Source: Closterium sp. NIES-65 (lineage: Eukaryota; Streptophyta; Zygnematophyceae; Desmidiales; Closteriaceae). Taken from it: DNA of 64,000 nucleotides. The position numbers and the translations under genes are program-made. The notes under the pieces were generated by a model that saw nothing but the letters and a program-made list of their open reading frames with translations, ran no database searches and was not told the origin of the DNA. Below, in pieces: positions 27,501 to 64,000 of this stretch. Positions within the stretch are counted from its first letter, which is position 1, and each line of letters starts with the position of its first letter. The stretch lies in assembly GCA_948144175.1 (NCBI GenBank), contig CANXME010001993.1:62001-126000 (forward strand). Reading direction: 5' to 3'.

Positions 27501-29339
27501 GAGGACGTGGTGAAGGTGGTGCTGCGCAGCCCGCAGGTGCTCACTCAGAGCGTGCAGAGCGGCCTCGTGCCACGCCTCCACTACTTCCTGCACGACCTCG
27601 CGCTGCCCCTTCCCTCCCTCGCTTCCATGGTCGTGCGGTCTGTGCCATCCCCTCAATGCCTTCTCTCTTTTCCCCCCTTACTTTCTCTTTTGCTCCTCTT
27701 CCTTGCCCTCTTCCCCTTTGACATACATACAGACATGTTGTAATGATTTTATACAACATGCACATGCCAGAATTGGTGTAGGTTTGTTGGGTGTATCTCC
27801 AACCACAATATGTGGTTGAAGCTTGGTTGGGCTGGGTTTCCAACAATGATTGGGCCACCAATATTGTTGGTTCAAACCCACTTAACAATTACTGGAGCCC
27901 CAATAATCGTTGGCCAAGCTCATCCATCAACCATTCTCTCCGCCTTGCCTCATTCAGCCCAAATCCATACACTCTTCTTTTTCAAAACATGCGCGCATCC
28001 CATCCTCTCGTTTTCGTGCTCCCCACCATGCATCCCACCATGCATCCCACCATGCATCCCACCATGCATCCCACCATGCATCCCACCATGCACCCCACCA
28101 TGCACCCCACCAGGCATCCCACCATGCATCCCACCATGCACCCCACCATGCATCCCACCATGCGTCACACCATTCGTCTCACCATGCATCTCACCATGCT
28201 TGTCATGCCCACCCACCCCCGCTCTTCCCCCAGCCATCCACAGCTGCTGCACTACTCATTGGACGACGCCGTGCGCCCGCGGGTGGCATTCCTCAGAAGC
28301 ATCGGCCTCTCCAGCCGGGATGTCGCACACGTGCTCTTCCGCCTGCCCCAGGTGTGCTCTTCCGCCTGCCCCAGGTGTGCTCTTCCGCCTGCCCCAGGTG
28401 TGCTCTTCCGCCTGCCCCAGGTGTGCTCTTCCGCCTGCCCCAGGTGTGCTCAACAGCGTGTTGTGCCAACCCCCATCTTCTAACACCTCTGTACCCCGTT
28501 TTTTCGCCTGTGACCGTTTCTTTCTTCTCCTGTCTCGGTTCCCCATGTTTCCTTCCCCGCCCTCCTCCCCTTCCGACCACACCTTTGCCCCCCTTCACTG
28601 TCAGATTCTCTCCCTCTCAGTGCCCAACTGCCTGGCGCCCAAGTACGACTACCTCATCCACCACCTGGGCGGCTCGCCCAACTCCATAGTCTCCTTCCCC
28701 GCCTACTTCTCCCTCTCCCTGCACGCCCGCATCCGCCCGCGCCACCTCTTCTACCTGCATTGCAGAGCCGCCTCCGCTCCCACCGATGCCCCTCCTCAGC
28801 TGCTGTCTTCTCTTTCCTTGCCACCTGCCCACGACCCTTCCGCCTCACCCCGTGCTGCCACCTCTTCATCTCCTGCCACTCCCACCTCCCTTCCCGCGCT
28901 GCCACTGCCCACAGACGCGTCTCTCATGCCACCACCGCCGGCCCCGCACCCAGCCCAACCCGCCCACCCCTTCGCCTTTCTCTCATCCGCCCGGCCCTTC
29001 TCGGAGCCCTCCTCTCCGCCTCCTCCACCCCAAGCGCCGCTGCCGTCCACAGCCTTCCCGCTGAGCCTGCTGACCCCCACGGACGAGGCCTTCTGCAGGC
29101 GCCTGGGGCTGCCCAACGACCGCGAGTACCAGGCCTTCAAACTCGCCCTCACCTCCTCTGCTGCTCCTACGCCTCAGGCAACTCAGGCTCCACTCGTGCA
29201 TGCTTCTGCTGCACTGCTGTCTGCAGAAGTTCAACCGGCAGCAGGGGTGTTGAGGAGAGGGAAAGGAGGGCCAGTCTCACATCTGACATCACCTGCCGGA
29301 GGAGAAAGCACAAGAGAATCGACGGTCCAAGGGAGTTGA
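23100..29339 (+). CDS. mTERF-domain protein (organellar transcription/RNA factor), six exons
   Basis: Exons 23100-24371, 24773-24916, 25140-25397, 27480-27637, 28234-28351 and 28605-29339 join in phase into about 894 residues; every intron is GT-AG. mTERF repeats run from about residue 430 to 720, with the family pattern of leucine-proline helices: LVARCPKLLTYRVDTRMAPR (exon 3), LRSPQVLTQSVQSGLVPRL (exon 4), HPQLLHYSLDDAVRPRVAFL (exons 4-5), LPQILSLSVPNCLAPKYDYL (exons 5-6) and SLHARIRPRHLFYL (exon 6). Such proteins bind organellar nucleic acid and act in plastid or mitochondrial transcription, splicing or translation. The N-terminal 420 residues are low complexity (GREGKEG repeats) and may include a transit peptide. 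The C-terminal tail is proline- and alanine-rich. The 5' splice sites of introns 3 and 5 are tandemly duplicated, and intron 3 carries a copia fragment. Family is certain; target organelle is not. Confidence 0.85.
24486..24560. repeat. (TG)n microsatellite in mTERF intron 1
   Basis: Long runs of TG with scattered TATG and CGTG variants. It can form Z-DNA and is likely length-variable. Confidence 0.9.
25386..25455 (+). repeat. 23-bp tandem repeat across the 5' splice site of mTERF intron 3
   Basis: The exon end CGCTTCCTACAG/GTGCCCC is followed by two further copies in which CGCTTCCTGCAG is again followed by GTGCCCC. Each copy therefore presents a CAG/GT donor. The unit is 23 bp, so use of the second donor would shift the frame. 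Confidence 0.9.
25461..25618 (+). repeat. 5' LTR of the intronic copia fragment
   Basis: Bounded by TG and CA and directly followed by TGGTATCAGAGC. It is unrelated in sequence to the LTRs of elements 1-4. Confidence 0.8.
25461..27380 (+). mobile_element. Ty1/copia fragment in mTERF intron 3 (different lineage, fossil)
   Basis: A 158-bp 5' LTR (25461-25618, TGTCAACC...CTCACA) is followed at once by a perfect initiator-tRNA-Met primer site TGGTATCAGAGC (25619-25630), a leader, and a copia gag region starting MAFASSAIANPITPLRL (about 26065). Degraded gag and protease-border sequence runs to about 27120. No integrase, reverse transcriptase or 3' LTR is seen. It is a 5' fragment with several breaks, in the sense orientation of the host intron. 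The right boundary is approximate; the host intron resumes before the acceptor at 27479. Confidence 0.8.
27738..27960. repeat. AT-rich insert with short inverted repeats in mTERF intron 4 (possible MITE)
   Basis: Inside a GC-rich intron this stretch is AT-rich and holds nested inverted words such as CCAACAAT...ATTGTTGG (about 27838-27876) and ACCACA...TGTGGT. No target duplication was identified, so a miniature transposon is only a suggestion. Confidence 0.35.
28021..28200 (+). repeat. 12-bp minisatellite (CATCCCACCATG)n in mTERF intron 4
   Basis: About 14 copies with decay toward the 3' side. It makes an open frame of HPTM repeats, which I judge non-coding because the exon phases on both sides skip it. 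Confidence 0.9.
28329..28443 (+). repeat. 23-bp tandem repeat multiplying the 5' splice site of mTERF intron 5
   Basis: The exon 5 end GCCTGCCCCAG/GTGTGCTCTTCC is repeated: one copy at 28329-28351, then four perfect 23-bp copies to 28443. Each gives a CAG/GTGTGC donor. Phase with exon 6 is kept only by the first donor (28351) or one three units later. Confidence 0.95.
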
Positions 29340-35412: not shown

Positions 35413-38400
35413 TCAGTAATTCCCGAGAAGATAGCGCCGCCATTCGGAGGTGGCAGGTGGGGGGCCAGGCAGCCAGCAAGGAGGCACTGACGAGCCTGGG
35501 GCAAGCACACCTGGGGACAGCGACGCAGCAGTAGCAGCAGCAGCAGCCGCAGCAGCAGCAGCAGCAGCAGCGGCAGCAGCGGCAGGAGCAGCAGGCGGAC
35601 CTTCAAGCATGAAGGAGGAGGTCGGCGGGAGGAGCTGATGGGTGTGAGAGACGAGAGCGCGTAGAGGGTGATAAGGTACTTGGGGGTGAGGGGTTGGGGC
35701 AGAGCAAGGCAGGGGCAGCAGGAAGGCATCCCACCGGCGCCGCACTGCTGCGAGGCCATGCAGGGACAGGTGGTGTGCTCCCCCCTCCCTGCTGCCACGC
35801 ATGCCTGCCTGCCCCTGGCCCTGCCCTGCCTCCTTAAGGGTGTAAATACAAATACGGGTACGAATACGATTACTATAAACGAATAGTAGCCGAATACTTG
35901 GCTAGATTTGTATTTGTTCGAATACCTGGTCTTATACGAATACGAATACGGTTCGAATACGCTGATATTTGTCGAATACGATTTCGGATACGGTTTGGCG
36001 TTAAAAGAATTTGGGTTTGTGCATTGTGGTTGGACTTTATTCGACAGTTTTCGGCTTTTAGTTATCAGTTTTGGGGTCCAGTCCAGTATAATCTCAATTC
36101 CCCAAGACACTATGTCTCTGTAGGGTGTTAGGTTGTAAGGTTTTAGATGATCCTTCACAAAGCTTTGAGGAATGCTGCTAAGCTCGTTGTTTTGAGGAAT
36201 GTTTAAGAGCCAAGTATGCTTTCAAATTAATATTATGGTTGTGGAGATTCACTATAGCAGTCCAGCTCTATAGGTTCAGTTCATGAACAATTAATTCTGT
36301 TGGGGCAATTCATTTGGAGGTAGATGCCCAGTTGGTTGAGTGGTGCTTTAGGTCATAGGCACGCGGGTTCATTTCTTGACAGGTTCATTTGTAGCAGTGA
36401 TAAAATGTTTGGTTAAAGATGATTGCTACACCAAACATTGATGCCACATAAAGTCTGATTCATTAACGTTAGACACTAACACCTTACTCTGATGAGAATA
36501 TTGAAGGCATTCACACTCAAACTTTCTGGTCATAATCCAGAGCAGTGGGAAACAAGGCAATATCAATAGGACAGTTCAGATTTGTTTTTTAAATCTCCAA
36601 ACAAGTTTCAACCAAAGGCCTTTATTGTTTACTAAAAGAAGTAGACAAACTCAACAAGATTGATGCACCTCCAAAACTCCTACCTAACCTCTACCTAGCT
36701 AAGCATGCAATTCGAACTCCTACCCTAACTACTCTATTAAGCTTCATAACCGACAAAATCTTGCCATGACCTTAAGCACATGCACGCCCGCACCGTATCC
36801 GGACTCATGCTATGCCGAAAGTCCGTCATCATGTGCATTGCCAATGAAAACACCCTCTCCGAATCCGCGGATGTTCCCGGTATGGCCAAGTAGTCTCGAG
36901 CCATACGCGCAACAATCGGATAATCAATTGCCTTAACGCACCACCATTCCTTGAATTAGGAGCTAAATCCGCGAACCTTAATCCTCGGCTCACGAATGTA
37001 CTTGGTGAGCTTCTCCAAGGGATCCGTGGGCTCATCATCGTCTTGCACACTAAAGATTCCCCCCAAGAAAGAGGATGACACTCGAGCAACTTCATTATTG
37101 TGAGTTTTTGTCCCCGAGCTCTCTCCCACGTGTTCAAGGCCGGCCTCCTCCTTCTCATACTCAACATAGCGCCTTTTTATGCACTCCTCCACAATCCCCA
37201 CACTTACATGCCCGCCTCCTTTTGATGCACCCGCGACATAGTAGTCAAGGTTGAAACGCGGGTCTAGCACGGTTGCCACGGTGTATTCCTCGGTGGAGCG
37301 ATCGTAGTACTTCTTTAACTTCTCAAAGCCTCGCTTGCATGCCTTGGCGAAAAACCTATTCTCGTTGATCACCGCTTCCATCTTGTCCATAAGCATGTTC
37401 AACAACGGTATGACCAAGGATACGGTTGCATACTCGGACGCTTCCAAAATCGTGGTGACTTTGGCGAATGGCTCAAGAATGTTCTCAAGCGTCTCAAGTG
37501 ACTTCCACTCATCTTCCGTCATACGGTAAAACTTTTCCACACTCTCCCCTTCATCAACAAGGAATGAATTAATGGGTTTTTGCAAAACCTTGGCCTTTTT
37601 TATCATTGCATGGGCGCTTGACCATCTTGTGGGAGTGTCCACCGCAATGGATGTCACATTCCCAACTTTGGCATCCTTGCATTTTTCCGCAAACCGGTCG
37701 GATCGAAGGGAGGAGCCTCCAATGTGTGTGGCAAACCCTCGAATCTTCTCAATTGCGCCTATGGAGGAAGGCGCTTTCATGATGGCCTCGACAACTAGAT
37801 TGATCACGTGCGCAAAGCAAAACATGTGCCTCTCCTTTGAGAATGCGGTCTCTTCATCAAGGAGACGGAGGAATGCGTCGTTGTTGCTTGCATTATCAAG
37901 TGTGATGGCCATCACTTTGTCTCCAAGGCCCCAACGAACATGGACAGAGTGGACGAAAGCGTTTTTTATCGCTTCACCCGTATGAGATCCTTCCATGTGA
38001 ATGAAGTCAAGCAAAATTCGTTGTGACTCGAAGTTTTCATCGAGCCAATGAGCGGTTATTGCCATGAAAGCACTCATGTTGGGGGCCGTCCAAATGTCAC
38101 ACGTGAAAGATATCTTGCATTTCAGCCCTTGCAATCTCTTTTTGATTTTTTCCATGTATGAATCGTATGCAAGATGCAACTCTTTTGCGATGGTGACACG
38201 GGAGGGCATGTTCACTTCGGGTTGAAGCCATTTCACCCAATCTTTCAACTCCGGACACTCAAGTCCACGAAAAGATATGCTCCCTTTCGCAACAATGCGC
38301 ACAAGACGGCTCCTATTTTCGGCATCGGAGTAGGGCGTGAGCTTTAGCATGGCCCTTGCAATGTCCTCCTTCCCCCCTCGGCTTCCCTTTTTTTTATCCA

Positions 38401-45011: not shown

Positions 45012-48000
45012 ATGGCCGCGGCGCTCCGCGCAGGGCGAATCAGCGCCGCGGATTTCCCGCTCGCCGCGGCCAGACTCGCAGCAGCGTGGAACGCGGCGGA
45101 AGACGCGCAGTTGATTGGCGAGCCGCCTCGCAGCTCCCCCGCGGCGGCAGGCGCGCGGCGGAGTGGACGAGCGGGAAGCGCAGTAGCAGCGTGGGCGGCG
45201 GCCCAAAGTGAGGGGGGTGGTTCCGCGGCAGCGCGGAATGCGGCGGCAGACGTGGCGGGTGAACGGCAGGGAGTGGAGGACGCTCGCTGCGAGAGGCGCG
45301 CGTAGGGCGTGAAGTGGCAGTGGGTTACGGCGCGGGCGTCGTCGCTGGCAGTGGGGGGTGAGTGGGCGAATAGGTGGCGCTACGTGGCACGGGGGCCGCG
45401 TGTAGAGGTCATTTTTGAGACGTCTCAAAAATAACCTCTCCTACACGAGATGCACAGGTGTGTGCTCTCTTCTCCCCTCGCTCCTGCTACCCTCCTCCTC
45501 CTCCCCCACTCCCTGTCTCGCGCACCTCCCTGCACCACCCTGCTCGTTGTCCACGCCCCTCTCAGCCCCTTCCTGCCCACTCCGGCCCTCTTTCCAGTTG
45601 CCTCTCCCCTCTCCGTCGCATCCACTCGCCCCTCTCTTCCCTCCGTCCCTTCCCCACTCCCAAATAACTTCACACTCTCGTCCGATCTAATATCCACTCC
45701 CTCGCCCTCCCTCCATGCGGCCTCATCTGGCATTGCCATGATAACTGCACGCCTCCTCCCTTGTCCCTGCACCCGCCATCCCTCCCACTGCCCTGGCCCA
45801 GGCGGCTATCTCACCACCCGCCACCCGCTGCTGCTGCACCGCGCGCACAGCCAGCACCACCCCGGCTGTTGCCCACTTGACCCAGTGGATCCCGTTGACC
45901 CCGTTGCCCCCGTTGACTCGATTGACCCCGTTGACTCGATTGACCCCGTTGACTCGATTGACCCCGTTGACTCGATTGACCTGAGTGGCGAGGAGGCGCA
46001 CGACCCTGCCACTCTGCACTGCTGCGCGCATCCCCACCACACGTCAGTGCTGGCAGCAGTAGGTGCAGTGGCAGCAGCAGCACCACAGACACTCCTGCAA
46101 CACGCAGAGGGGGCAAGCGGAGAGACTCCTGGTGGGTGGACAGGTGGGCAGGCGATGTGTGGCGATGGAGCAGGTGGGACGAAGAGTGTGCAGCAACCAT
46201 GTGACGTGGCAGCAAGTGACGTGGCAGCCAGTGACGTGGCAGCGAGTGACGCGGTGGCTCTGGTGCATTGCCACGTGGTGTTTGATGCTGCTTACTCGGT
46301 GCCCCAACTGCTGCTCCTGCCATGCCGCCCTGGTATGTCAACCATGCCATGCCATGCCGCCCATGTGTGCTGGCCATGTCACGGCCGTACTCCGCTCTCA
46401 TGCACCTTTCCACCATGGGCCCAACACGTGCAAGCAACAGGGCGCCTCTCACATTTGAAACTGTGCCCACCCTCCCTCCACGTGCTCCTCTGCTGCCCAC
46501 TTTTCCTTTCGTCTCCCTATCCACCATCCATCACCACACTTATCCCTTCCCACCCCCCCAACCCTCCATGGCACCACCCCCTCCCCCCTCCCCGCACAGA
46601 CGGCCGCCCCCTGCCCTGGCGGGACCTCTTTGCCTTCCTGCCGCGCCTTCCCGACCACCCCTTGCTGCCCTCACCCCTCCCCTCCGCCCCTCGTCCGCCC
46701 ACCGCATATGACCCCTCTCTGGACACCTGGCACCTGCTCACACCCCTGGTACGCCCCCACCCACAAGCTCCATCGCTCATGCTCTCACCACCAACCGACA
46801 CCTGCCATGGCATCCCGTGCCCCAAGCACCATGCATGGACCATTGGCTGTGGCCCGCACTTGAAGCTATGCTGCACTACATGCATGCCTTCCCATCGCCT
46901 CTCCTCACTCATTCACTCACTATTGTTGGATGCACTGCATTGCTCGCTGCCAATGCACTGTGTGCTGCACTGCCCTCACCATGATACCCTCCCCGTGCCA
47001 CCCTCCCCATGCCACCCTCCCCATGCCACCCTCCCCATGCCACCCTCCCCATGCCACCCTCCCCATGCCACCCTCCCCATGCCACCCTCCCCAGTGCCAC
47101 CCTCCCCATGCCACCCTCCCCATGCCACCCTCCCCATGCCACCCTCCCCATGCCACCCTCCCCATGCCACCCTCCCCGTGCCACCCTCCCCATGCCACCC
47201 TCCCCATGCCACCCTCCCCATGCCGCCCTCCCCATGCCACCCTCCCCATGCCACCCTCCCCATGCCACCCTCCCCATGCCACCCTCCCCATGCCACCCTC
47301 CCCGTGCCACCCTCCCCATGCCACCCTCCCCATGCCACCCTCCCCATGCCGCCCTCCCCATGCCACCCTCCCCATGCCACCCTCCCCATGCCACCCTCCC
47401 CATGCCACCCTCCCCATGCCACCCTCCCCGTGCCACCCTCCCCATGCCACCCTCCCCATGCCACCCTCCCCATGCCGCCCTCCCCATGCCACCCTCCCCA
47501 TGCCACCCTCCCCATGCCACCCTCCCCATGCCACCCTCCCCATGCCACCCTCCCCATGCCACCCTCCCCATGCCACCCTCCCCATGCCACCCTCCCCATG
47601 TCACCCTCCCCATGCCACCCTCCCCGTGCCACCCTCCCCATGCCACCCTCCCCATGCCACCCTCCCCATGCCACCCTCCCCATGCCGCCCTCCCCATGCC
47701 ACCCTCCCCATGCCACCCTCCCCATGCCACCCTCCCCGTGCCACCCTCCCCGTGCCACCCTCCCCGTGCCACCCTCCCCGTGCCACCCTCTCCGTACTGC
47801 CAGGAGCATCCCTTCCTGGGCCGGCCCTGTGTGGCCCTTCACCCCTGCAACACTCCCGCTGCCATGGCGCTGCTGCTGCACGCTGCTGCTGCGCCTCATG
47901 CTCATGCTGCTGCAGGCAGTGCTGCTTGTGCTACTGCCACTGCTGCTGCTAGGGGTGGTGCTGCTGGTGGTGCGGCCGCTGCAGCAAGTGGTGCAGATGG

Positions 48001-48984: not shown

Positions 48985-51900
48985 CTATTCAGCGACAGTC
49001 GTCGTTGTTCTTACTGTGTCTGCTCCACCCTCATCTGCTCGCCCCTCACCTGCTAACGCCCCTCCCTCTGTCTTTGTAGCGGCTGCATCCCCACCTACCG
49101 TATCCCCATCTGCCCCCTTTGCTGCGCTGCCAGCACCAGCCTTGCCCACAGCTTCTTCCTCCTCCCCCCCTTCCTTGCCACCCGCGCCACCGCCATTGCC
49201 TGAAGCACCCCCGTGCCCAGCATCAGCTGGCAGCGCCTCGTACTCGCCGGTTGCCTCGTTGAAGCGGTACCTGCGGGACCCATGGGCGGAGAGGGGTGTC
49301 AACACGCGTGTGCGGGTCTTCACCTTCGGGGCTTGGGCTCATGTGCGAACAGCATGGCAAGCACATGGCATGGCATGTCGGCATTGCAGTGAGTGCAGTC
49401 CAGACTCTGCCGTGGCTGTTCTCAGAACCTAATCAGCATGCCAACAGCAGGCTGTCTGTCACCGCTGTACACTGCTCTGCACCCAACCCTACTGCGCACC
49501 AGATTCTGTCACCGCACGCACTGTACCGCACTCAACCCTACCATGTGCTATTTGCAGCACTGCAGAATAGACCAGAGGAGGAGTCGTAGTAGTAACCCTG
49601 CTCCTTGTTGAAGTAGTAGCTGCCAAGGGGTTGGGAGGGTGGGGGAGTTCCGGAGAGGATGGGGGAAGTCACTCTTGGGAATCTTCAGAAGCGATTTCAG
49701 TATAGTAGGGAGGAAATGGAAGAGGGGCATGTGAGGTGCGGTGCCACAAGGAGAGGTGTGGCAGCAGTCACGAGCAGAAGCAGGAAGGGGGGCGTTTAAT
49801 CGCCACAGGGGGAAGGTGCTGGGTGGTGGGGAAGGAGTGGAATGAGGGGTTGAATATGCACGGCATTTTGGGAGGCGGGCATGTGAGATGAAACCGCATG
49901 TGAGATGAAACCACATGTGAGATGAAACCACATGTGAGATGAAACCACATGTGAGATGAAACCGCATGTGAAGTAGTCGCAGGGGGAGGAGGGGGGAGGG
50001 GAGTTGGGAAGAGGAGGGGGGACGAGGAGAGACAGTGCAGGCATGGACATGTGAAGTGCGATGGCCTTAGAGAAGGAAGGGAGGAGTCATAGCACTCGCC
50101 AACAGTGGCACGGAGGGAAGCGGGGAGGGAGGGATGGGCACAGGTGGGACAGGTGGGGTGGAAGGGAAGGAGGGGGATGGGGCGGTTGAGGAGGGCACAC
50201 GAGAGAAGAAGAACCTCCTTCTCTAAGCCAGTGGGCGCGAAGCCAAGGTTCAGGTGGAACAGCCATGCACTCACCCAGTGGACGGGTCAAACTCGTAGCC
50301 GCTGCTGTTGCTCGGCGCTCCACTCCCCTCACCCCCTGCCTTCCCCTCCCCTCCATCCTTCTCCTCCCCTACTTTCCCTTCTACCCCTCCCTGTACCTCC
50401 TTCCTCTCACCTTCCTTCGCCCCCCCTTCCCCTGCACCAGCCCCTGCCTCATCATCCTCGTCGCCAAACATGTCCATCCCCGCACCTCTCTTCTTCCCAC
50501 TCCCTCCCTCCTCCCCACCCGCACCCCCCTTCTCCCCCTTGGCCCCCTCCCCCTTGCCCCCCTCTCCCACACCCCCCTCCCCCCCGTTGCCCCCCAGCAG
50601 CCCCTGGCGAGCCCTGAGGATGGCCTCGTACCCCGCGGCCTCGCGCTCAAACGTCTCCTTCTTGTCCGAGTACACCTCTGCACGCACCGTGCCATGCCGC
50701 ATGGGGTGGAGGGAAGGAACGGGGAGCAAAGCAAGCAACACACGTGTGGGTGTGCAGCATGCACCATGGGCGCGCGGGATGGCCTCATACCCCCGGGCCT
50801 CACGCTCAAACATCTTCTTCTTGTCCGAACTGAATACACGTCTGGGCCACGCCATGTGGCATGGGGTCAAGGAAAGGGGGAGCACAACGTGGCTCTGCGT
50901 GCAGCATGCATCATGGGCGTGAAACAGCAACGACAAGTCACACGGGAGGGAAGGAGCAACATGCTCTCGCTGCCCTTGTGTGCTTCCAGCAGCCTTCAAC
51001 GACGTGCTATGGCACTGGATGCATGCATGGAGCACGTGGTATATGTCAGGTGCCATTCTACCTTGTGAAACATTCTATGGAGAAACAAGTGGTGCGAAGA
51101 AGCATAGACGTTCTATGGAGAAACAAGTGGTGCACAACATATTGAAAACCCAACAGACTATCTGCCCCCTGCTTCCACCGTTTCTGTCTCACCCTACCTA
51201 CCTCGCCGTACCTGTCTCACCATACCTGTCTCGCTGTACCTGTCTCACCATACCTGTCTCACCATACCTGTCTCACCATACCAGTCTCACCGTACCTGTC
51301 TCACCGTAACTGTCTCACCGTACCTGTCTCACCATACCTGTCTCACCATACCTGTCTCACCATACCAGTCTCACCGTACCTGTCTCACCGTAACTGTCTC
51401 ACCGTACCTGTCTCACCGTACCTGTCTCACCATACCTGTCTCACCATACCTGTCTCACCATACCTGTCTCACCGTACCTGTCTCGCCGTACCTGTCTCAC
51501 CGTACCTGTCTCACCGTACCTGTCTCACCGTACCTGTCTCACCGTACCTGTCTCGCCGTACCTGTCTCGCCGTACCTGTCTCGCCGTACCTGTCTCGCCG
51601 TACCTGTCTCGCCAGCATCCATGAGCAGCATCGCGTCTTCAGTCAACTGCTCAAACAGCCGCTGCCTTGCCTCCTCATCCATGCCCCCCTCCTCCCCCTC
51701 CCCCCCCTCCCGCCTCCTCCATCCACCGTGGTCTATTCTGCTGCCTCCCCCCTTTCCCCCTCCCCTCCCCGCCATCCTCCCCTTCCCCTTCACCCCCCGG
51801 ACGACCCCTCTTCTTCCCCCCTTTCCCCGCCTTCATCCCCCCTGCTCCCCCCTGCCCCGCGCCCTTCTTCCCCCGGCCCAGGCGCTTGAGCCCTTGAATG

Positions 51901-54900
51901 ACCTGCACGTGGGTGGGGCGGAGAGTGAAGGGGGGGGGGGGGGGGGAAGAGGGGGAGGGGAAGAGGGGAGGTGGTTTTTGAGAGCACGGGTGGAGAAGGG
52001 GAAAATTTGTAACAATATTTAGAGGGGGGAAGGAGAGTAGAGACACGGTGCACGAGTGCAGGAGGACGAGGGAGGCGATGGGAGGCGATGGGAGGCGATG
52101 GGAGGCGGTGGGAGGCGGTAGGAGTTGGCAGGCGGAGCATCTTTCACGTGCTGTGTGGCGGAAGTTTCCCCCTCCCATGCTGACTTGACTGGCAGTGCCA
52201 CCCTTGCTGCCCTCATCCTCTAATGACTCGTCTTCCACTCTCACCATCCTCCCAACCCCCCCACCTTCACCCTCACCCCCCTCTCCAAACTCATGGTCTT
52301 CCCCTCCTGACAGCATCAGCAATGCGCCGTCGTATCGCTGCCAACTTGCTGTGCCCCATCCCGCTGACCCCCACCTCCTGACTCCCGCCTCCCCCTGCCT
52401 CCTCCATACTCACCGTCTCCCCCGGCCTGAGAGCATCAGCGATGCGCCGTCGGATGGCCGCCATCTCCCCGTGCCCCATGTCGCTGCCTAACGCCTCCTC
52501 CGCTGCCGCTGCTGCCTGGGCGCGCGCCGCTGCCTTGGCTGCTAGAGTGGGGTCCACCTCCGCTGTCGCCAGCCATGCGTCCTGCCAGGGGGAAGAGGAA
52601 GGAGCGGAAGGGGGGAGACGGGGAAAGGGGGAGATGAGTACATGGAGGAGTGCCGCTGCTGCCTGGGCGCGCGCTGCTGCCTTGGCCGCCAGCGTGGGGT
52701 CCACCTCCGCTGTCGCCAGCCATGCGTCCTGTGGGGGGGGGAGACGGAGAGGGAGGGGGAGCGGGAGGGGGAGGGGGAGGCATAGCAGTGGCAGGGTGTG
52801 CTCCGCTGCGTGGGTGCAAGGGGTATAGCGTGGGTGCAAGGGGTATAGCGTGGGTGCAAGGGGTATAGCGTGAGTGCAAGGGGTATAGCGTGAGTGCAAG
52901 GGGTATAGCGTGAGTGCAAGTCAAAGCATCGCAACCGCATCTCTCGGTACTACCAAAATCTCTTCCTCACCATGCCTTCACTACCTTCGCCCTGCTTTTC
53001 TCTGCACCCACCCACACCCCCCTCCCATCTCACCGTGGCCGCCCTGCTCTCACCGTGGCCGCCCTGCACTCACCGTGGCCTCGGTGTCCTCGCCTCTCAC
53101 CGTGGCCTCGGTGTCCTCGCCTCTCACCGTGGCCTCGGTGTCCTCGCCTCTCACCGTGGCCTCGGTGTCCTCTCCTCTCACCGTGGCCTCGGTGTCCTCT
53201 CCTCTCACCGTGGCCTCGGTGTCCTCGCCTCTCACCGTGGCCTCGGTGTCCTCCCTATACTCCACGTAGTTGCCCTCCGCATCGAAGTACCCCTCCTCGC
53301 GCTCCTGCTGCAGGTTGAACGGCTCCATCGCCTCCCCCTCCTCCTCCTCGCCCTGCCACCATGCCGCCCCACCATGCGCCCATCCTCTCACTCACACCAT
53401 TCACCACAGCACAGCACAGCAGGGCATGGCACAGCACAGCAGGGCATGGCGAGCAGGGCAGAGCAGAGGAGAGGAAAGAATGCATGTGAGGAGAGGAAAG
53501 AATGCATGTGAGGAGAGGAAAGAATGCATGTGAGGAGAGGAAAGAATGCATGTGAGGAGAGGAAAGAATGCATGTGAGGAGAGGAAAGAATGCATGTGAG
53601 GAGAGGAAAGAATGCATGTGAGGAGAGGAAAGAATGCATGTCAGGGTCGACCAGCTCGGAGCATGGCACTCCCCCCTCCCCACCCCCCATGCTCCCCCTT
53701 CCCACCGCCAGCACTGCCTGCACGCCGTGCCCAGTGAACCGTTTCTAACACGCCGTGCCCAGTGGACCGTTTCTAACACGCCGTGCCCAGTGGACCGTTT
53801 CTAACACGCCGTGCCCAGTGGACCGTTTCTAACACGCCGTGCCCAGTGGACCGTTTCTAACACGCCGTGCCCAGTGGACCGTTTTCTAACACGCCGTGCC
53901 CAGTGGACCGTTTCTAACACGCCGTGCCCAGTGGACCGTTTCTAACACGCCGTGCCCAGTGGACCGTTTCTAACACGCCGTGCCCAGTGGACCGTTTCTA
54001 ACACGCCGTGCCCAGTGGACCGTTTCTAACACGCCGTGCCCAGTGGACCGTTTCTAACACGCCGTGCCCAGTGGACCGTTTCTAACACGCCGTGCCCAGT
54101 GGACCGTTTCTAACACGCCGTGCCCAGTGGACCGTTTCTAACACGCCGTGCCCAGTGGACCGTTTCTAACACGCGTCCACCCCAACCGGCCCTACCATGT
54201 GCCTCACCGCACTCAACACCCCTGTGCTTCCCGCTCACGACCTTTTCTCACCAGGCCAATCGCCCCCATCCACATCCATCCACGCTCTCCCTCCATACGT
54301 CCCCTCTGCTCCCTTCCCTTTTCCTCCCATTTCTATCCCCTCCCTCACTTCACCCACCTTCCCTTCCCCCCCCCCACCCCTTCCTTCTGCCCGTGCCCTC
54401 TCTTTCTGCTCCCCTGCTCCCTCCCTATCCCTGTTCCCCTCTCCTTCCCCCCTTTTCCCCTCCACCGTTTCCCCTCCCCCCTTCCCCTCCCCCCGCTTCC
54501 CCTCGCCCCCGCACCTGGAAGTCCTCCTCGGCGCGCACCACGTCCTCCACGCCCCCGAAAGCCGTGTCCCCCCACTTGCTCTTCCCCTTCTTCCGCTGCT
54601 GCGCGCGCGCCAGCGCCGCCACGCGCGGGTCCGCGGAGTCCATCAGCGCCGCCGCCCCCACGGCGCCTCCGCCAGCCGCGCCGGGCTCCGCGCCGAGGTC
54701 GTCGAGATCCATCGCGCTGACGTCAGCGGCGGCGGCGGGCGCGCCTTTTGCCTTCTTCGGCTTCTTCTCCGGCAGCACCGCGCGCCGTGGCCTGCGCGCG
54801 CGCGGGGGGGGAAACGGGGGATGGGGGGAAGCGGGAGAGGGGAAGGGGAAGAAAGGCTGGGCGCGGAGAACGGAATTGAGGACATGAGGAGAACGAGGGG

Positions 54901-55113
54901 CGTGCGGCGAATCCGTCGCTGGCGAACGGAGGTGTCGCACGGACGAGAGCGACGAAGAACCTGGACGGGGGAAGGCGCGCACTTGGCGTCATCATCGTCG
55001 TCGTCGTCGTCGTTCCCCGAGAAGCGAACATTCTTCTTCCGCTGCGCCTCCTTGCGCTCGTCGCCCTTGCCCGTCCCCGCCGCCATCAGCCCCATCTCGC
55101 TCTCGCCCGACAT
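48985..55113 (-). CDS. LIN1 / CD2BP2-like U5 snRNP protein, eight exons
   Basis: Minus-strand exons 55113-54983, 54791-54515, 53352-53236, 52581-52414, 51902-51604, 50677-50275, 49619-49542 and 49270-48985; about 585 residues. Family motifs in order: KKNVRF; MEPFNLQQEREEGYFDAEGN (CD2BP2 PFNLxEExEEGxFDxxGNY); DAWLATAEVDP; MAAIRRRIADALRPGE (plant LIN1 MKRRIANVLEPGE); LTEDAMLLMDAGE; SDKKETFEREAAGYEAI; and an OCRE-like aromatic run GYYYDSSSGLFCS, then WYRFNEATGEYEAL. CD2BP2/LIN1 is the 52K component of U5 snRNP. All junction phases agree except exon 5, where one base is in excess around a G-rich tract (about 51680-51720): a real slip, a sequence error or an unseen small intron. No C-terminal GYF domain is visible. 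Several exons have tandem-copied halves or donors. Confidence 0.78.
49876..49975. repeat. 18-bp tandem repeat in LIN1 intron 6
   Basis: CATGTGAGATGAAACCAC repeated about six times. Confidence 0.9.
50770..50860 (-). pseudogene. Ghost copy of the 5' half of LIN1 exon 6
   Basis: The minus strand reads SDKKKMFEREARGYEAIPRA after an AG, against SDKKETFEREAAGYEAILRA in exon 6 about 160 bp away. It lies in intron 5. Only the acceptor-side half is copied and no donor follows. Confidence 0.8.
51185..51610 (-). repeat. 14-bp array multiplying the 5' splice site of LIN1 intron 5
   Basis: The exon end GGCGAGACAG/GTACGG is followed by about 30 copies of the 14-bp unit GTACGGTGAGACAG (with CGAG and ATGG variants). 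Every unit offers an ACAG/GTACGG donor. Confidence 0.92.
52292..52345 (-). pseudogene. Ghost copy of the 3' half of LIN1 exon 4
   Basis: The minus strand reads MGHSKLAAIRRRIADAVR against MGHGEMAAIRRRIADALR in exon 4, about 119 bp away. The donor position reads CATGAGT instead of GGTGAGT. Confidence 0.8.
52651..52728 (-). pseudogene. Duplicate of the 5' half of LIN1 exon 4 with its own acceptor
   Basis: Begins after CACAG and reads DAWLATAEVDPTLAAKAAAR, identical in protein to the start of exon 4, 147 bp away. The sequence between the two copies stays open in frame, so a longer exon starting here is possible. Confidence 0.85.
52805..52920. repeat. 20-bp tandem repeat in LIN1 intron 3
   Basis: GCGTGGGTGCAAGGGGTATA, about six copies with one alternating base (GTGGG/GTGAG). 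Confidence 0.9.
53031..53260 (-). repeat. 27-bp in-frame array multiplying the 5' splice site of LIN1 intron 3
   Basis: Seven copies of GAGGACACCGAGGCCACG/GTGAGAGGC, so seven CACG/GTGAG donors 27 bp apart (exon ends 53236, 53209, 53182, 53155, 53128, 53101, 53074), plus two more CACG/GTGAG sites at 53054 and 53034. Because 27 is nine codons, each of the seven keeps the frame and would add GEDTEATVR to the protein. Confidence 0.95.
53466..53641. repeat. 22-bp tandem repeat in LIN1 intron 2
   Basis: GAGGAGAGGAAAGAATGCATGT, eight copies with almost no divergence. Confidence 0.92.
53720..54175. repeat. 28-bp tandem repeat in LIN1 intron 2
   Basis: About 16 copies of ACACGCCGTGCCCAGTGGACCGTTTCTA with one length variant (an extra T). 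There are no spacers between units, so it is a minisatellite. Confidence 0.95.
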
Positions 55114-55316
55114 TGCCACTGTTACGGTGGTTCGCCGCTGCCCTAGTATCTACCGGCCTATGCGTTTGGGAAATGTCGACCTAATGTGGGCTACCTGCAG
55201 CAAGAACGGTGGGGCTGGAAGCTAAGGAGCTGAAAACGTCGAACTAAGAGCCATCGGATTCTCTCAAAGAGCTCCTCGGTCAACGAGTGCTGGTTCTATC
55301 GTCACCCTGGAACACT

Positions 55317-56645
55317 TTAGGGCCCTGTTCGGTAGCCTCCCAGTCACACTGGACCCACTTGATGGGGGGGAAGCCTCTGGTACGTTTCGTAGCCTCGGGC
55401 GTCCACTCGCACTAGACAGATGTTGCGTCCATAGTTGCAAGAATTTACCTCGCGTTTGTAAAAAAAAAAACCGGCCGAATTTTGCCAGCTGCCCGACCCA
55501 CAAATAAGAAATCAGTCCGCCAAATGGGATCCCTCATTATGGATGAAAGAAATACGGAGTATGAGCACGATCTCTCGTCGTTTTTAATTCAACAGACTAA
55601 AAATATTCATTCGGCCCGAAATGACACTAATACAGCGTATACCCTCCAGCATGCCAGTCAGAGCGGGTCTGCCTGAGTGGAACTGGAAAGCTGAAATGGG
55701 ATGGACTCCTGCTGACTGTCGAGTTTGCCTAAGAGAGAATTACTGTAGAGCCTGGACTACTGATTTAATCTTACTCGCATGGTCTCGAATTACTCGAGTG
55801 GCCACCAGATTTGATGATAATTACTCGAGTGGCCACGCCAGGGGATTCCCGCTGACTTTTTCCTGGCGCATTACCCTACAAGGGCTCGTATCCCCGAAAC
55901 CTCTGTATTGATAATTCCGCGATTCTCAATTTACGCGATGATTTAAAATGGATGCTTTCGCGTGATGATATATATTCGAAATTTATGTTCATGACTCTAT
56001 ATGACCGCGCCTGATTAAACGCGCATATAGTCCACCAATCATGCGCGGTCGTTAATGGTCGGGCACATCATATATTATTGCCCGATCATATATTTCCGCG
56101 ATCATAAACTGCAATGCCCGGGCGTCAATACGCGGGACATTTAATGACCGCGCATGATTGGTCGATTATATGCGCGTTGCTTTGTTTTGCAATGCGCGTC
56201 CAATCAGGCGTGGTCATAAGGGGTCACGATCATAAATTTCGGATATTGAAGATCGCGCATGAATCATACAGAAGTTTCGGGGATACAAACCCTTGTAGGA
56301 TAATGCGCCGGGTTAAAAAACTAACGGGAATCCCCTGGCGTGGCCACTCGAGTAATTATCACCAAATCTGGTGGCCACTCGAGTAATTCAAGACCACGCG
56401 AGTAAGAATGAACCACCAAACCAGGCTCTACATTAATTCTCTCGTTTGCCTGGGCTCACCAATTTCGAGGTAGTGTCTTCCCCTGCACTCGGTTGGGTGT
56501 ATGGCGCGTTTGGTAGCCAAACCGCACTGGTCAGGTTTGGTGTTTTAATAACGATTTGGTAGGATTTAAGGTTGTTTGAAATTGGGCCGCGGAAGATCAC
56601 CTGCACCAACCACAATGTGACTGGGGTGGCTACCGAACAGAGCCT
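55317..56645. mobile_element. Possible non-autonomous DNA transposon (outer inverted repeats)
   Basis: GGGCCCTGTTCGGTAGCC (about 55320) faces an inverted GGCTACCGAACAGAGCC (about 56627-56643). The terminal repeat is about 35 bp with mismatches. The GGCCCTGTTCGG word is typical of plant hAT miniature elements. I could not match an 8-bp target duplication. No transposase is inside; it encloses the long palindrome at 55733-56444. Confidence 0.55.
55733..56444. mobile_element. Foldback element: palindrome of about 710 bp
   Basis: Two arms of roughly 350 bp are reverse complements with scattered mismatches. GAATTACTCGAGTGGCCACC (about 55790) is mirrored near 56380, TATCCCCGAAACCTCTGTAT (about 55890) near 56265, and ATGACCGCGCCTGATTAA (about 55999) near 56200. 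It has no coding frame. This is the architecture of a foldback element or MITE; extruded it would be a very long hairpin, a possible small-RNA source. Confidence 0.85.
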
Positions 56646-56928
56646 AGATGACGAATGGAGTCTGGAAGTGGCTTGCGTGGCGAGCGTGTGACAAGCTCAC
56701 AGGGAGGATGCGATCTGTTGAGCCAGAAATGTCTTTGCCAAATGCTGATCCGATAATATGCCATTGACAGGCAGTACAAAGTACACGCTTAAAAAGACTA
56801 ACATGAGGTGATAATGTAACTTAGAAAATTCTTTGCCAAATGCTGAAGCTTCAGCACATTTCATAGCCTGACAAGCATCTTGGGATTCCTAAAATATTTT
56901 CTTATTTGCACAACTTGCGGCTGCATCC
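56446..56928. other. Spacer downstream of bL19
   Basis: About 480 bp, partly within the outer inverted-repeat element. The part next to 56929 probably holds the bL19 3' untranslated region. No gene was recognised. Confidence 0.4.
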
Positions 56929-59928
56929 CTAAACAGCGGACATACGGGCAACATTGTCCCTCAAATAGTACAACTTGGCCCTCATGACTTTGCGCGTGCC
57001 TATCACTGTGATCTCCTTGATGATGGGCGAGTACCTGCGCGGAGAGAGACGAGAGGTCATTGCTGGAATTAGACCTATACAAAATCTTGCGTGCATCTGT
57101 TGGCCATCAGCAATGTCATTCCGTTTCCTTTCCATCATGCAATGCTCGTACAGCAAATCGCAGAAAGTGCTTAGCTGGTTGGCAACCACAGGCATGCGCA
57201 CCTTAGGGAACACACACGGCACATTGACACTCCGACGAAACGAGACTCACAGAGGGTGTCAACGCCCATGCCCACCAGCATGCAATGCATGCGGAATGTG
57301 AAGTTGATGCCACCAAACAGAGCATGATAGCATCTGGCACTAGCGGTGCCTAATTTAAGTGACGCAAGGCACACTGACACTCGGACAAAAGGAGACTCAC
57401 AGACGGAAGAACGAGTCGATGCCCACGCCTGACAGCACGCACTCAGGACACATGGCAGGCATTAGGAGTGAGGTGCCACGCAGCCAAGTTGCTTCAACTG
57501 ACACAGGGCAGCGACGCACAAAGAGTGAGGGACTCACAGGGGGAAGGACATCTCGACGCCCACGCCGGCCAGCATGCGCCGGATGCGGAACGTGGAGCCG
57601 ATGCCGGCGTTCCTGCGCGCGATCACGATGCCCTTCACTATCGACGTGCGCCGCTTGTTCTCAGGCACCTCCTGGGAGAGAGGGCGAGAGGGGGAGAAGG
57701 AGGATGGCGGCAAGTGTGAGGGCGACGGAATGTGGAACAGAAGCCAGACAACATCAGTACTAGCACACAAGCCCTTTCGAGGCGCTTCATGGGTACTAGC
57801 ACACAAGCACACATTGGCTAGTAACACGAGCCCCCATTGGCGCAACACGAGCCCCCATTGGCGCAACACAAGCCACCATTGGCGCAACACAAGCCCCCAT
57901 CAGCGTAACACAAGCCCCCATTGGCGCAACACAAGCCCCCATCGGCGTATGAACTCCCCCAAGTGAGCACGTACAATCTTCATGGAGAGCACGTACAATC
58001 TTCATGGAGAGCACGTACCCCGGCTTGAAGTCCGGCATGTTGCGCTCCTGGCGCAGCACCCCTGTTGCCTCCGCATCCAGGATCTGCACGGGCAGGGGGT
58101 GATGGGACGGGGCGATGGGACGGGGCGATGGGAAGGGGCGATGGGAAAGGGCGACAAGTTAAGGGCGGAAAGGAGAGGGTGGGGATGCATGTTGCGCTCC
58201 TGGGGCATAAAACTCGTGGCGTCTGCACCAAGGATCCGAGAGGGGAGGAGCAGGCGGGAAAGGTAAAGCGGGAAGGGAAGGCGAGAGAATATGAGAAGCG
58301 GAGGCATGTTGCGCCCCTGGTACAGTGAACCCGTGGAATCTGCATCCAGAATCTAAGAGGGGTGGGGGATGGGAAGGAGAGAAGAGAGAAGGGCAGGACG
58401 GGGAGGGGGGGAGAGAAGCGAGGCGAGGTGTGGACCTCTCCTCGCAGCGAACCCGCGTGGCCTCTGCATGCCGCGTGGCCTCTGCATGCTGCGTGGCCTC
58501 TGCATGCCGCGTGGCCTCTGCATGCCGCGTGGCCTCTGCATGCCGCGTGGCCTCTGCATGCCGCGTGGCCTCTGCATGCCGCGTGGCCTCTACATGCCGC
58601 ATCTGAGAAGAACGGGGGGAAAGGGTTTGAATGGGGGGCGGGGGGAGGGGAGGGGGAAAGGGGGGAAGTTCTGTGCGCATCCAGCATGTGAGGGGGAAGT
58701 TCTGTGCGCATCAAGCATGTGAGGGGGAAGTTCTGTGCGCATCCAGCATATGAGGGGAGAAGTTCTGTGCGCATCCAGCATGTGAGGGGGAAGTTTTGTG
58801 CGCATCCAGCATGTGAGGGGGAAGGGAAGAGAGTTGACGTTGGAGGCGGCGGGGTGAGGACCACGAGGAGCCAATGCCCTCGTGGCGCCGTGAAGCCGTG
58901 GCCTTTGCATCCAGAATCTGCAGGGTAAGTGAGGTGGGAACGGGGGAACGAGAGGGGGGTGGGAAAGGGAGACAAGATAAAGGTGGGACGAGGACAGAAG
59001 GCGGAGGAGTGTGGGGCGAGGACAGAAGGCAGAAGGCATGCTGTACTCCGGGTGCAGTCCATTTGTGACCTCTGCATCCCAGAATTCGAGGGGACAGGGA
59101 AGAGGAAGGGGCAGAAGCGGAGAGAGGGGGAAGATGGAAGATGGAGGGGAGACACGATAAAGGCGGGAGGTGGAGGGAGACACGATAAAGGCGGGAGGTG
59201 GAGGGAGACACGATAAAGGCGGGAGGTGGAGGGAGACACGATAAAGGCGGGAGGTGGAGGGAGACACGATAAAGGCGGGAGGTGGAGGGAGACACGATAA
59301 AGGCGGGAGGTGGAGGGAGACACGATAAAGGCGGGAGGTGGAGGGAGACACGATAAAGGCGGGAGGTGGAGGGAGACACGATAAAGGCGGGAGGTGGAGG
59401 GAGACACGATAAAGGCGGGAGGTGGAGGGAGGATGAGAAAGTTGCATTCTTCGTTGGCTCAAGTTTTGTGTTTTTTCCATATCATTTTGCATCAACTCAG
59501 GAACGAGGAGGGAGGGTTGGAAGCTTGTACTTCTGGTGCAGTGAATCTGTGGCCTTCGCACAGAAATTTCGGTGCATGCTGTATGGGGCGTGCTCACATG
59601 GACTCACATTCATGATGTGCTTTGCTTGCTTCGTCAGCGCTTTTGTCTTCACTCCGATCCTCCCATTTCCCACCCCCTGTTCCCCTGTTGCTCCATCTCC
59701 GACCCTCCCTGTTGACATTGCTCCCATTCCTACTCCTCCTGCCCCTGCAGCTGCAGACGGTGCTGATGGTGCTGATCTTGCTGATGCTGAGGTGGATGCT
59801 CCTGCGAATGCGGCTGATGTTGATGAGGGTGACGTGGCTTCAGCCGCTATGGCTGACGTGGCAAATCCATGGCTAGGGAAAAGGGAGGAGGATGGGATGA
59901 GAGGCGAGCAGCTTCTGGTGGCAATCAT
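56929..59928 (-). CDS. Organellar ribosomal protein bL19, four exons
   Basis: Minus-strand exons 59928-59608, 58083-57997, 57671-57538 and 57034-56929 join in phase into about 215 residues, the usual size for plant organellar L19. N-terminus [17 protein letters not shown] with GFATS looks like a mitochondrial presequence; an alternative in-frame ATG lies at 60006. Conserved core: [66 protein letters not shown] and [17 protein letters not shown]. bL19 sits at the interface of the large and small bacterial-type ribosomal subunits. Mitochondrion is my preference over plastid, from the presequence only. Intron 1 (1.5 kb) holds at least six ghost copies of exon 2 and three minisatellites; intron 3 holds two ghost copies of the exon 3 end. 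It follows LIN1 on the same strand. Confidence 0.9.
57235..57345 (-). pseudogene. Second ghost copy of bL19 exon 3 (3' part plus donor)
   Basis: The minus strand reads [20 protein letters not shown] then GTGAGTC, against [20 protein letters not shown] in exon 3. The donor is at 57250, 150 bp from the other ghost. Confidence 0.8.
57385..57465 (-). pseudogene. First ghost copy of the bL19 exon 3 end
   Basis: The minus strand reads [13 protein letters not shown] then GTGAGTC, against [13 protein letters not shown] then GTGAGTC in exon 3. The donor is at 57400, 137 bp from the true one (57537). Confidence 0.75.
57825..57960. repeat. 20-21-bp tandem repeat in bL19 intron 2
   Basis: GCGCAACACAAGCCCCCATTG and variants, about six to seven copies, starting beside the duplicated donor of exon 2. 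Confidence 0.9.
57965..58019 (-). repeat. 22-bp repeat across the 5' splice site of bL19 intron 2
   Basis: GTACGTGCTCTCCATGAAGATT occurs twice in a row and its first ten bases begin a third copy. The first unit is the exon end (YVLSMKI codons). Donors ATT/GTACGTG follow each of the two complete units. Phase with exon 3 is kept only by the first (57997). Confidence 0.92.
58184..58235 (-). pseudogene. Ghost copy 1 of bL19 exon 2 (5' half)
   Basis: The minus strand reads [16 protein letters not shown] against [16 protein letters not shown] in exon 2, 152 bp away. The acceptor AG is lost (CTCGG). Confidence 0.8.
58300..58352 (-). pseudogene. Ghost copy 2 of bL19 exon 2 (5' half)
   Basis: The minus strand reads [17 protein letters not shown] after a TTAG acceptor, 117 bp from ghost 1. 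Confidence 0.85.
58433..58602 (-). pseudogene. Ghost copy 3 of bL19 exon 2, expanded by an 18-bp array
   Basis: Starts after CTCAG and reads RHAEAT repeated about eight to nine times (18-bp unit GGCATGCAGAGGCCACGC), then RVRCEERS, matching [11 protein letters not shown]. Each unit contains GCATGCAG, so each is a potential acceptor. Confidence 0.75.
58675..58815. repeat. 31-bp tandem repeat in bL19 intron 1
   Basis: About five copies of a unit containing GTGAGGGGGAAGTTCTGTGC and GCATCCAGCAT. Confidence 0.9.
58865..58917 (-). pseudogene. Ghost copy 4 of bL19 exon 2 (5' half)
   Basis: The minus strand reads [14 protein letters not shown] after a good CTGCAG acceptor. Confidence 0.8.
59035..59086 (-). 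pseudogene. Ghost copy 5 of bL19 exon 2 (5' half)
   Basis: The minus strand reads [16 protein letters not shown] with one extra base near its start. The acceptor AG is lost. Confidence 0.75.
59145..59430. repeat. 29-bp tandem repeat in bL19 intron 1
   Basis: About ten near-identical copies of a unit containing GAGGTGGAGGGAGACACGAT and AAAGGCGGG. Confidence 0.92.
59515..59567 (-). pseudogene. Ghost copy 6 of bL19 exon 2 (5' half)
   Basis: The minus strand reads [15 protein letters not shown], matching [15 protein letters not shown]. It is the copy nearest exon 1, about 40 bp below its donor. Confidence 0.75.
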
Positions 59929-61985: not shown

Positions 61986-64000
61986 CACCCCCATAGGCAA
62001 AGTGGGGGAGAACAAGGGGTCACAAGACCAGTCAAGCAAAGCAAAGCAAAGCAAGCTCAGGGTGGATCACAACGTCACCACACAGTCCGAGCACAAGAGC
62101 AGGGCCAGAGGCCAGTTCACATGCAGGAGTACAGACATATATATAAAACTAGACAAGCAAGAGCAGGTATATATATATGTCACAGTACAAGTGAAGTCAA
62201 GAGGAGAGCAAGTGAGGCAAGACAGGCACAAGACCCAGCTGGGTGCAAAAGCGCTGATGGTCACAAGGCGTGAGTGCCTTGGTGAACACATCAGCAGTGT
62301 TGGCCTCAGAGGCCACGTACGCAAGTCGCAACTGACCACGCTGCTGCAGCTCACGAGCAAGGAAGTAGCGGAGAGCAATGTGCTTCGTTCTGTGCTCCAA
62401 GCGCTGCTCTCGACACAAGGCCAGCATGGCCTTGTTGTCTACGTACAACACTGGAGGAGAACGAGGCCGCTCTCCAAGGTCAGTCAGCAGGTAGGTGAGC
62501 CAGCGAAGCTCCTGTGCAGCCATGGCCCCGGCGTAGATCTCAGCCTCACAGCTGGAGCCGAGAACCGAAGACGAGCGAGTAGACCGCCACGAGACAGAGC
62601 CGGAACCAAGGCTGAAGGTGTAACCCTGTGACGACCGCTGCGTAGCCTGGTCGTCAGCCCAAGAAGCGTCCGCGTGGCCGGTAAGGACCACTGGACTCCG
62701 CCCTCCAAGCACTAGCCCCATGCCCGACGTGCTGCACAGGTAGCGCAATACCCTCTTCGCTGCAGCCATGTGCTCCGGTCTGTGTCTCCCAGGAGCAACA
62801 TAGCGAGCAAGAATGCTCAGAGGGTATGCAAGGTCAGGTCGTGTGCAGGTCATCAGGTACATGAGGCAGCCAACAAGCTCTGCATACGGACCACTTGACT
62901 CTACGGACTCATCCGAAGGCAGAGCTGAGAGTGAGTGGCGAGTAGGCAGAGGAGTGGCCTGAGGCGAGGAGTACGTGAAGCCGAAGCGCTGAAGGACCTG
63001 CTGCACCATGTGTGACTGAGTCAAGGTAATGGTGCGGCGTGCTCTGTCCCGAGTGATCTGCAAGCCAAGGTAGCTGCGCAGTTCACCCAGGTCTGTGCAC
63101 GTGTGTCTCTTCAGCAGTTCGGACTTCACGTAGGCGAGTCCAGCAGTGTCTGCTGTGGCAAAGACCAAGTCGTCGACGTACACGAGGATGTAGAACGGCG
63201 GCAGGGAAGTGTCGGTGCGAAGAAACAGCGACGGGTCAGCAGTAGAAGGAGCAAACCCAAGAGCCGCAAGCGTAGTCCTCAGTGTGTCGTGCCACTCACG
63301 CGGTGCCTGGCGGAGACCGTAGACTGGCCGTCGGAGGCTCCACTTGGTGCCAGGAGGGAAAGTCCCAGTGAAGCCAGGTGGACGGCGAAGCCAGATCTCC
63401 TCGTGCAGGCTACCCTGCAAGAACGCAGTGCTGAAGTCGAGAGAGTGAAGCTCGTAGTCGCGCTGAGCGGCTATGTGCAGCAGCACCCGAAGAGTAGTCA
63501 TCTTCGGGGTGGGAGAGAAGGTCTGAAAGTAGTCAACTCCCTGCCGCTGACTGAAGCCACGAGCAACGTACCGTGCCTTGAAGACAGGTGGAGAGCCCGG
63601 CGGCCGCTTCACCCTGAAGATCCACATGCCACTGACGATGTTCGCCCCAGGAGGGGGAACCGCGTCAACGTAGGTGCCTGTGGACTTCCAGGAAGCCATC
63701 TCTGCATCCATAGCTGCCTGCCACTGAGAGGAGTAGGGACCCTCTACGGCCTTTGCGTAAGAACGCGGAGTCGGGATGTCTAGTGCATCCGGGTCTCCCT
63801 CAGGGGCAAGCAGTACAGACGCGAGATGAGGTGAAGCAGCCACTAGACACTGTAACTCCTCCTGCCTGTCCTCTAGGACGTCCGTGCCAAGAGCACACTC
63901 ACCCCCGACGGACGGAGGACAGACAGAAGCAGACTCAGCAACAAGACTAGCAGCGTAGTCGAGACGACAGCGAGCAGCAAAGTCGACGAGCTCAGCGACT
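61855..64000 (-). mobile_element. Ty1/copia LTR retrotransposon, element 4 (5' part outside window)
   Basis: 3' LTR 61855-61985 (about 131 bp, TGTGAAGC...CCGACA), polypurine-tract complement CACCCCCAT at 61986-61994, then RNase H and reverse transcriptase on the minus strand (about 62197-63845) with WIFRVKRPPGSPPVFKARY, YVDD near 63175 and CEAEIYAGAMAAQELRWL. The visible frame is open, so this is the best preserved RT region in the window and probably the youngest autonomous copy. The rest lies past the window end. It sits in the protease-only copia derivative. Confidence 0.9.

Follow-up and report, generated by a model that had tools for sequence, protein, structure and literature searches.

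Tandem duplications across exon-intron borders in Closterium resemble the mirages of amphioxus

Tandem duplications whose repeat unit spans an exon-intron border recur in three unrelated genes (mTERF, LIN1 and bL19) of a 64,000-nucleotide stretch of the Closterium sp. NIES-65 genome, hereafter the window. They comprise five arrays of short units and five families of longer duplications, and the original prediction made for this DNA was right that such duplications recur. It had also proposed them as an unnamed, undescribed phenomenon, and here it has to be corrected: the accessible text of PMC3087553 describes the same structure in amphioxus under the name of mirages, so the border duplications found here are of a known kind. 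The structure type is thus already described and named, and its occurrence in the green lineage adds a new case. We think it likely that these are mirage-type structures produced by ordinary duplication and filtered by selection.

Results

Gene models

Genes were identified by Pfam scans, with stops read as X, of both strands from 24 to 48.6 kb and of the minus strand from 48.5 to 60 kb. Exons were placed by GT-AG borders, phase and homology. Homology backs the models of four genes (mTERF, LIN1/CD2BP2, bL19 and an ATG10-like gene). The exons of two of them are as follows.

48985-55113, minus: LIN1/CD2BP2-like gene of eight exons, with GT-AG borders, consistent phase, and CD2BP2 and OCRE matches
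55113-54983, 54791-54515, 53352-53236, 52581-52414, minus: LIN1 exons 1-4
51902-51604, 50677-50275, 49619-49542, 49270-48985, minus: LIN1 exons 5-8
56929-58083, minus: bL19 gene, three 3' exons (58083-57997, 57671-57538, 57034 to about 56929), with a gapless bL19m match

Exons 1-5 of LIN1 align with human CD2BP2 (E 5.5e-11), and they do so through the EDTEAT/DAWL and RPGET/VIQGLKRLG junctions without an insert; spliced exons 5-8 contain an OCRE domain (Pfam, 2.5e-17). Phase is consistent along the model apart from one place, where the frame slips within a G-run in exon 5 (about 51680-51720, minus strand); this could be a sequencing error, a tiny intron or a real shift. The bL19 model consists of the three 3' exons only, with the stop (about 56929) counted by hand. 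When spliced, it gives gapless alignments through the two junctions with bL19m of entry 9evs (E 2.3e-39) and with At1g24240, an Arabidopsis-style locus name (1.9e-38); the proteins that match it best are mitochondrial or belong to plant chloroplasts. Pfam on spliced pieces returned Ribosomal_L19 for bL19 (5.1e-29), mTERF (1.3e-31) and, for the ATG10-like gene, Autophagy_act_C (2.6e-18). The ATG10-like gene was identified through Pfam alone. Kelch-type proteins appeared among the best 60 of 63 matches to the ATG10-like query and were taken as chance. LIN1 and ATG10 are used here as the probable gene names.

The mTERF gene lies outside positions 48985-59928. We looked for an exon downstream of its first array (25386-25458) and did not find one, so family homology backs the border at this array on the exon side only; an exon is probably missing, or went unrecognised, within the retroelement-bearing intron. 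A PDCD7-like gene, suggested at the outset as a further case, was not confirmed: it had no match in the Pfam scans, and reading frames gave nothing firm. With the retroelement-bearing intron left out, the 13 bounded introns have a mean length of 538 bp, similar to the means of 485-554 bp given for Closterium introns in the accessible text of PMC10407611.

Sequences resembling mobile elements occur at several places in the window.

1-24000 and 62200-63999, minus: several Ty1/copia-like frames, labelled by their reading frames
15939-19982, minus: Ty1/copia-like frame of 1348 aa
25398-28233: mTERF intron with a retroelement-like stretch and a primer-site-like TGGTATCAGAGC at 25619 (second match at 31478, minus)
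29.8-32.5 kb, approximately: weaker, below-cut-off traces of hAT (0.023) and a zinc finger (2e-5)
36764-37432, minus: hAT transposase C-terminal region (Pfam 1.7e-18) and an RNase-H-like match (2.8e-4, below cut-off)
55733-56443: fold-back element between LIN1 and bL19, with arms of 129 nt, 88% complementary, and nested inverted repeats

A copia-like reading frame had no relative among the viral contigs searched, a 101-aa LIN1 fragment had none in the genome-contig or viral-contig databases searched, and Rfam at gathering thresholds gave no match.

Long duplications and half-exon ghosts

Five longer families, three in LIN1 and two in bL19, duplicate half an exon together with its splice site. 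They were found by blastn of overlapping pieces; plain self-blastn overlooks copies close to the diagonal, among them the LIN1 pair 147 bp apart. The nine decayed copies, which we call ghosts, are 68-83% identical to their sources, and each beats the best of 40 block shuffles.

52651-52779, minus: ghost of acceptor and 5' half of LIN1 exon 4 (source 52504-52633), 83% identity
52244-52379, minus: ghost of 3' half of LIN1 exon 4 and donor (source 52356-52499), 79%
50777-50919, minus: ghost of acceptor and 5' part of LIN1 exon 6 (source 50620-50772), 78%
57440-57382 and 57303-57244 (within 57212-57440), minus: two ghosts copying the donor and 3' half from bL19 exon 57671-57538, 72-76%
58259-58187, 58374-58303, 58936-58875 and 59099-59035 (within 58187-59099), minus: four ghosts of acceptor and 5' half of bL19 exon 58083-57997, 68-72%
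58453-58600, minus: 18-bp array, apparently within one more ghost of bL19 exon 58083-57997

The eight spacings of this class range from 112 to 167 bp, so that, together with short units of 14-27 bp, the two predicted size classes are borne out, as is the coexistence of stages from fresh donor arrays to decayed ghosts. Any link of the long class to nucleosome length, as suggested at the outset, would have these eight spacings as its basis. The acceptor-side ghost of LIN1 exon 4 (spacing 147) is open, in frame and keeps its AG; the donor-side ghost of the same exon (spacing 112) has lost its GT, and the exon 6 ghost (spacing 159) keeps its AG. The family of bL19 exon 57671-57538 aligns as 57354-57440 with 57493-57577, plus a third copy at 57212-57284. 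Both of its ghosts retain the eight-base donor CTGTGAGT despite overall identity of 72-76%, which might mean that the site is used. AG is kept in two of the four acceptor-side ghosts of bL19 exon 58083-57997. Across all ghosts, two of three donors and four of six acceptors are kept.

The 18-bp array at 58453-58600 appears to have grown within a further ghost of bL19 exon 58083-57997: in five of six comparisons the score was higher than in any of 300 shuffles. The case is less clear for a 31-bp array at 58661-58824, which may also have arisen in a ghost (one of three comparisons above 300 shuffles).

In bounded introns, all four of the long families counted span a border; chance would give this with probability 0.51-0.77 for each and P 0.19 for all, the bL19 58083 family being left out because its intron is unbounded. 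Border-spanning in the long class is therefore about as frequent as chance allows, and it is favoured by detection. We simulated detection of intron-only and junction-spanning copies over a range of per-copy divergence, with 60 trials per point. At 20% divergence, 46 of 60 intron-only and 60 of 60 junction-spanning copies were detected; at 30% the counts were 5 and 40, and at 40% they were 0 and 11. Intron-only long copies thus escape notice. A C-rich intron-only pair (54300-54375 with 54435-54508, spacing 135) had been set aside as low-complexity, as had, among others, an intron-only pair at 49725-49853 and 50045-50189 (320) and pairs within LIN1 exons 5 and 6. Counting the C-rich pair would make four of five long families border-spanning, and the earlier claim of frequent hits on junctions would be weaker still.

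Short-unit arrays at splice donors

Arrays called with Tandem Repeats Finder make up 16.4% of the window. The count draws on 17 arrays with a period of 10 or more and a score of 50 or more, all in introns whose two ends could be placed. Dropped were periods below 10, scores below 50, a retroelement-internal array (25937-26009) and four arrays of the bL19 intron that has no known upstream exon (58096, 58453, 58661, 59142); the array at 53028-53080 was merged with its neighbour. Five of the 17 span a donor (5 of 21 if the four bL19 arrays are added) and none spans an acceptor. Two of the five lie in mTERF, two in LIN1 and one in bL19, and the first five lines below describe them; the last gives a contrasting array.

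25386-25458, plus: 23-bp array, 3.2 copies, mTERF donor, unit of 12 nt exon and 11 nt intron
28331-28451, plus: 23-bp array, 5.3 copies, mTERF donor, unit of 21 nt exon and GT; intron end at 28604
53028-53253, minus: 27-bp array, 6.9 copies plus a 20-bp tail of related sequence, LIN1 exon 3 donor
51176-51614, minus: 14-bp array, 31 units, LIN1 exon 5 donor (border AG/GTACGG)
57965-58018, minus: 22-bp array, 2.5 copies, donor of bL19 exon 58083-57997
46973-47790, plus: 14-bp array, 58 copies, wholly within an ATG10-like intron and stopping 13 nt before the acceptor

By frame arithmetic, only the first or fourth donor copy keeps the frame in the mTERF array at 28331-28451. The LIN1 14-bp array, whose junction lies beyond the CD2BP2-matched part, keeps GGT in 28 of 31 units and is polar, the units nearest the exon matching the exon. 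The bL19 unit, which begins GTACGTG, equals the last 22 nt of its exon; in this array the unit can also be taken as entirely exon sequence; a second donor, 22 nt on, disrupts the frame. The ATG10-like gene also carries 18 and 30 bp arrays in a presumed upstream exon.

Random placement of each unit along the collapsed intron predicts 0.76 arrays across a donor, against the five observed (P 0.0005). Setting the mTERF intron to 300 bp gives 0.85 (P 0.001), and also excluding long duplications and the 3' 40 nt gives 1.10 (P 0.003); for four or more such arrays P is 0.005-0.02 under the same models. Nominally, then, short arrays exceed chance at donors, in a post hoc test on a window that was chosen because it showed the pattern. 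The claim that repeats fall on junctions more often than expected by chance therefore holds to this degree for short donor arrays (P 0.0005-0.003) and fails for the long class. Donor-like motifs in array units number 21 of 72 in the whole window, a little more than the 16.4 of shuffles (P 0.1), and 10 of 25 in arrays of 1-24 kb against 6.7 (P 0.07). In arrays of 24-64 kb without the known junction arrays there is no excess, with 6 of 41 against a null mean of 9.3 (P 0.95).

These counts could reflect a biased process in which splice donors are the preferred starting points of tandem duplication, so that introns are driven to grow from the 5' end. Short sequence identity between donor and exon end, or breaks linked to transcription, might for example bring this about. 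The spanning of donors where about one array was expected, with acceptors untouched, and the polarity of the LIN1 14-bp array speak for it. Against it, the test is post hoc and draws on five events in three genes, of which the two mTERF arrays may be non-independent, and the long class has no excess. Nor does the asymmetry require bias: short acceptor-spanning arrays may be missing because upstream AG copies would be met first, and such arrays would be purged. We regard the biased process as unlikely. Unlikely, too, is its wider form, in which small duplications would be seeded preferentially at donors, introns would grow at their 5' ends by copying exon-donor DNA, and mirages would be the trace of a general donor-linked process common to animals and green algae. 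The donor excess of short arrays itself is not what plain neutrality would lead one to expect.

Some arrays might instead be coding, with exon borders lying elsewhere. This applies chiefly to the LIN1 27-bp array (VRGEDTEAT), whose unit comprises 18 nt of exon and GTGAGAGGC, and to the duplication of LIN1 exon 4; each has a length divisible by three and lacks stops. In the last 27-bp copy stands GTGAGT, presumably the stronger donor by consensus. Because the array is in frame and open and ends on this copy, the border of exon 3 may sit at the array end. However, CD2BP2 aligns through EDTEAT/DAWL without any insert, and the 14-, 22- and 23-bp arrays are not covered, because their units are not multiples of three. 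We give this reading little credence.

Reading-frame filter

Array periods follow the reading frame. All seven exon arrays and nine of ten arrays in long copia-like frames have periods divisible by three, compared with 6 of 23 in introns or at junctions (16 of 17 against 6 of 23; Fisher 1.8e-5); in unassigned stretches the figure is 19 of 32. The pattern indicates that duplication hits everywhere and that selection retains what leaves proteins whole. At two array-bearing junctions, those of the first modelled bL19 exon and LIN1 exon 3, the spliced models align through without the extra copies.

Intron gain

Tandem duplication of AGGT-bearing exon DNA had been put forward as a route of intron gain. 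We compared the donor and acceptor flanks of 13 of the 14 introns, leaving out the retroelement-bearing mTERF intron, with 156 mismatched pairs as the null. In register, the mean score is 3.46 compared with 3.4 in mismatched pairs; out of register it is 7.0 compared with 6.3, with one outlier, the GA-rich LIN1 intron 2 (17, null maximum 15). The flanks are not copies of each other, and intron gain by this route is not supported. A precedent exists in the potato RdRp gene, where, according to the accessible part of PMC4974935, a junction-crossing duplication created a new intron, and the acceptor-side copy of LIN1 exon 4 has the same layout. Apart from the GA-rich exception, the flanks are as unlike as those of mismatched pairs. 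Intron gain in progress, in which AGGT-bearing duplicates of exon DNA or a ghost half-exon that has been recruited would be turning into a new intron or exon, is very improbable. An assembly or sequencing artefact, which the G-run slip in LIN1 exon 5 and the difficulty of assembling long repeats might suggest, seems to us extremely improbable, since assembly error would not yield ghosts of 68-83% identity or LIN1 14-bp units that vary from copy to copy, an argument that does not clear the uniform arrays of mTERF (28331) and bL19.

Discussion

Mirages, as the available text of PMC3087553 presents them, are minisatellite-like tandem duplications across an exon-intron boundary in the amphioxus Adh3 and globin genes (BflGb6 and BflGb9), named in a 2002 paper cited there. 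Their units measure 10-72 bp or 150-160 bp, lie at the 5' or the 3' border, and keep AG/GT in many copies, not all. The Closterium duplications agree with this account in several respects. The repeat unit holds both exon and intron sequence in the five short arrays and the five long families. Both border types are hit, donors and acceptors in the long class and donors only in the short class, and AG/GT is partly kept, in ghosts as in the GGT of the LIN1 14-bp array. In size, the short units fall within the 10-72 bp range, whereas the long spacings only overlap the 150-160 bp range. Unlike the amphioxus cases in that source, ten families here lie in one 64-kb window of a green-lineage genome. 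For amphioxus, splicing and length polymorphism were examined, whereas the borders described here are predicted from DNA and protein homology.

Related structures differ in informative ways. As in potato RdRp (PMC4974935) and the near intron pairs of Drosophila (PMC2891723), so far as their accessible text describes them, duplication occurs across or near a border and involves exon-derived, donor-like sequence; unlike in those cases, the Closterium donor-acceptor flanks carry no duplication signature and no new intron is demonstrated. Direct repeats near splice sites, as treated in the available part of PMC11782384, are likewise close to intron borders, but they compare the two ends of one intron, whereas here tandem copies derive from a single border.

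Returning to ordinary duplication filtered by selection, we propose that small tandem duplications arise throughout this minisatellite-rich genome through break repair or slippage. Such duplications form from breaks according to the accessible text of PMC8355091, which deals with Pol alpha-primase at break ends. In exons, only duplications that keep the frame would survive; in introns, those of every size would. A duplication across a border would persist since it leaves one exon complete and one splice site working, and the extra copy would turn into intron, presumably at no cost and with the original splice site still in use. Arrays of short units may later expand or contract through unequal exchange or slippage, and long units would decay into half-exon ghosts, some of which may host new arrays. 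The net result would be introns lengthened by exon-derived DNA, with no gain of introns. What the sequence shows of this are the positions, the frame pattern and the decay; the origin by repair, the neutrality and the continued use of the original splice site are our inference.

The mirage phenomenon, found among the reports considered here in amphioxus (we do not claim that other cases are absent), is extended to the green lineage, and the density of ten families in 64 kb makes it countable. In genomes of this sort, gene prediction programs may put exon borders in the wrong place. The donor excess is one lead worth a genome-wide count. A genome rich in both fresh and decaying border duplications could serve to test whether donors attract duplications and whether ghosts become exons or introns.
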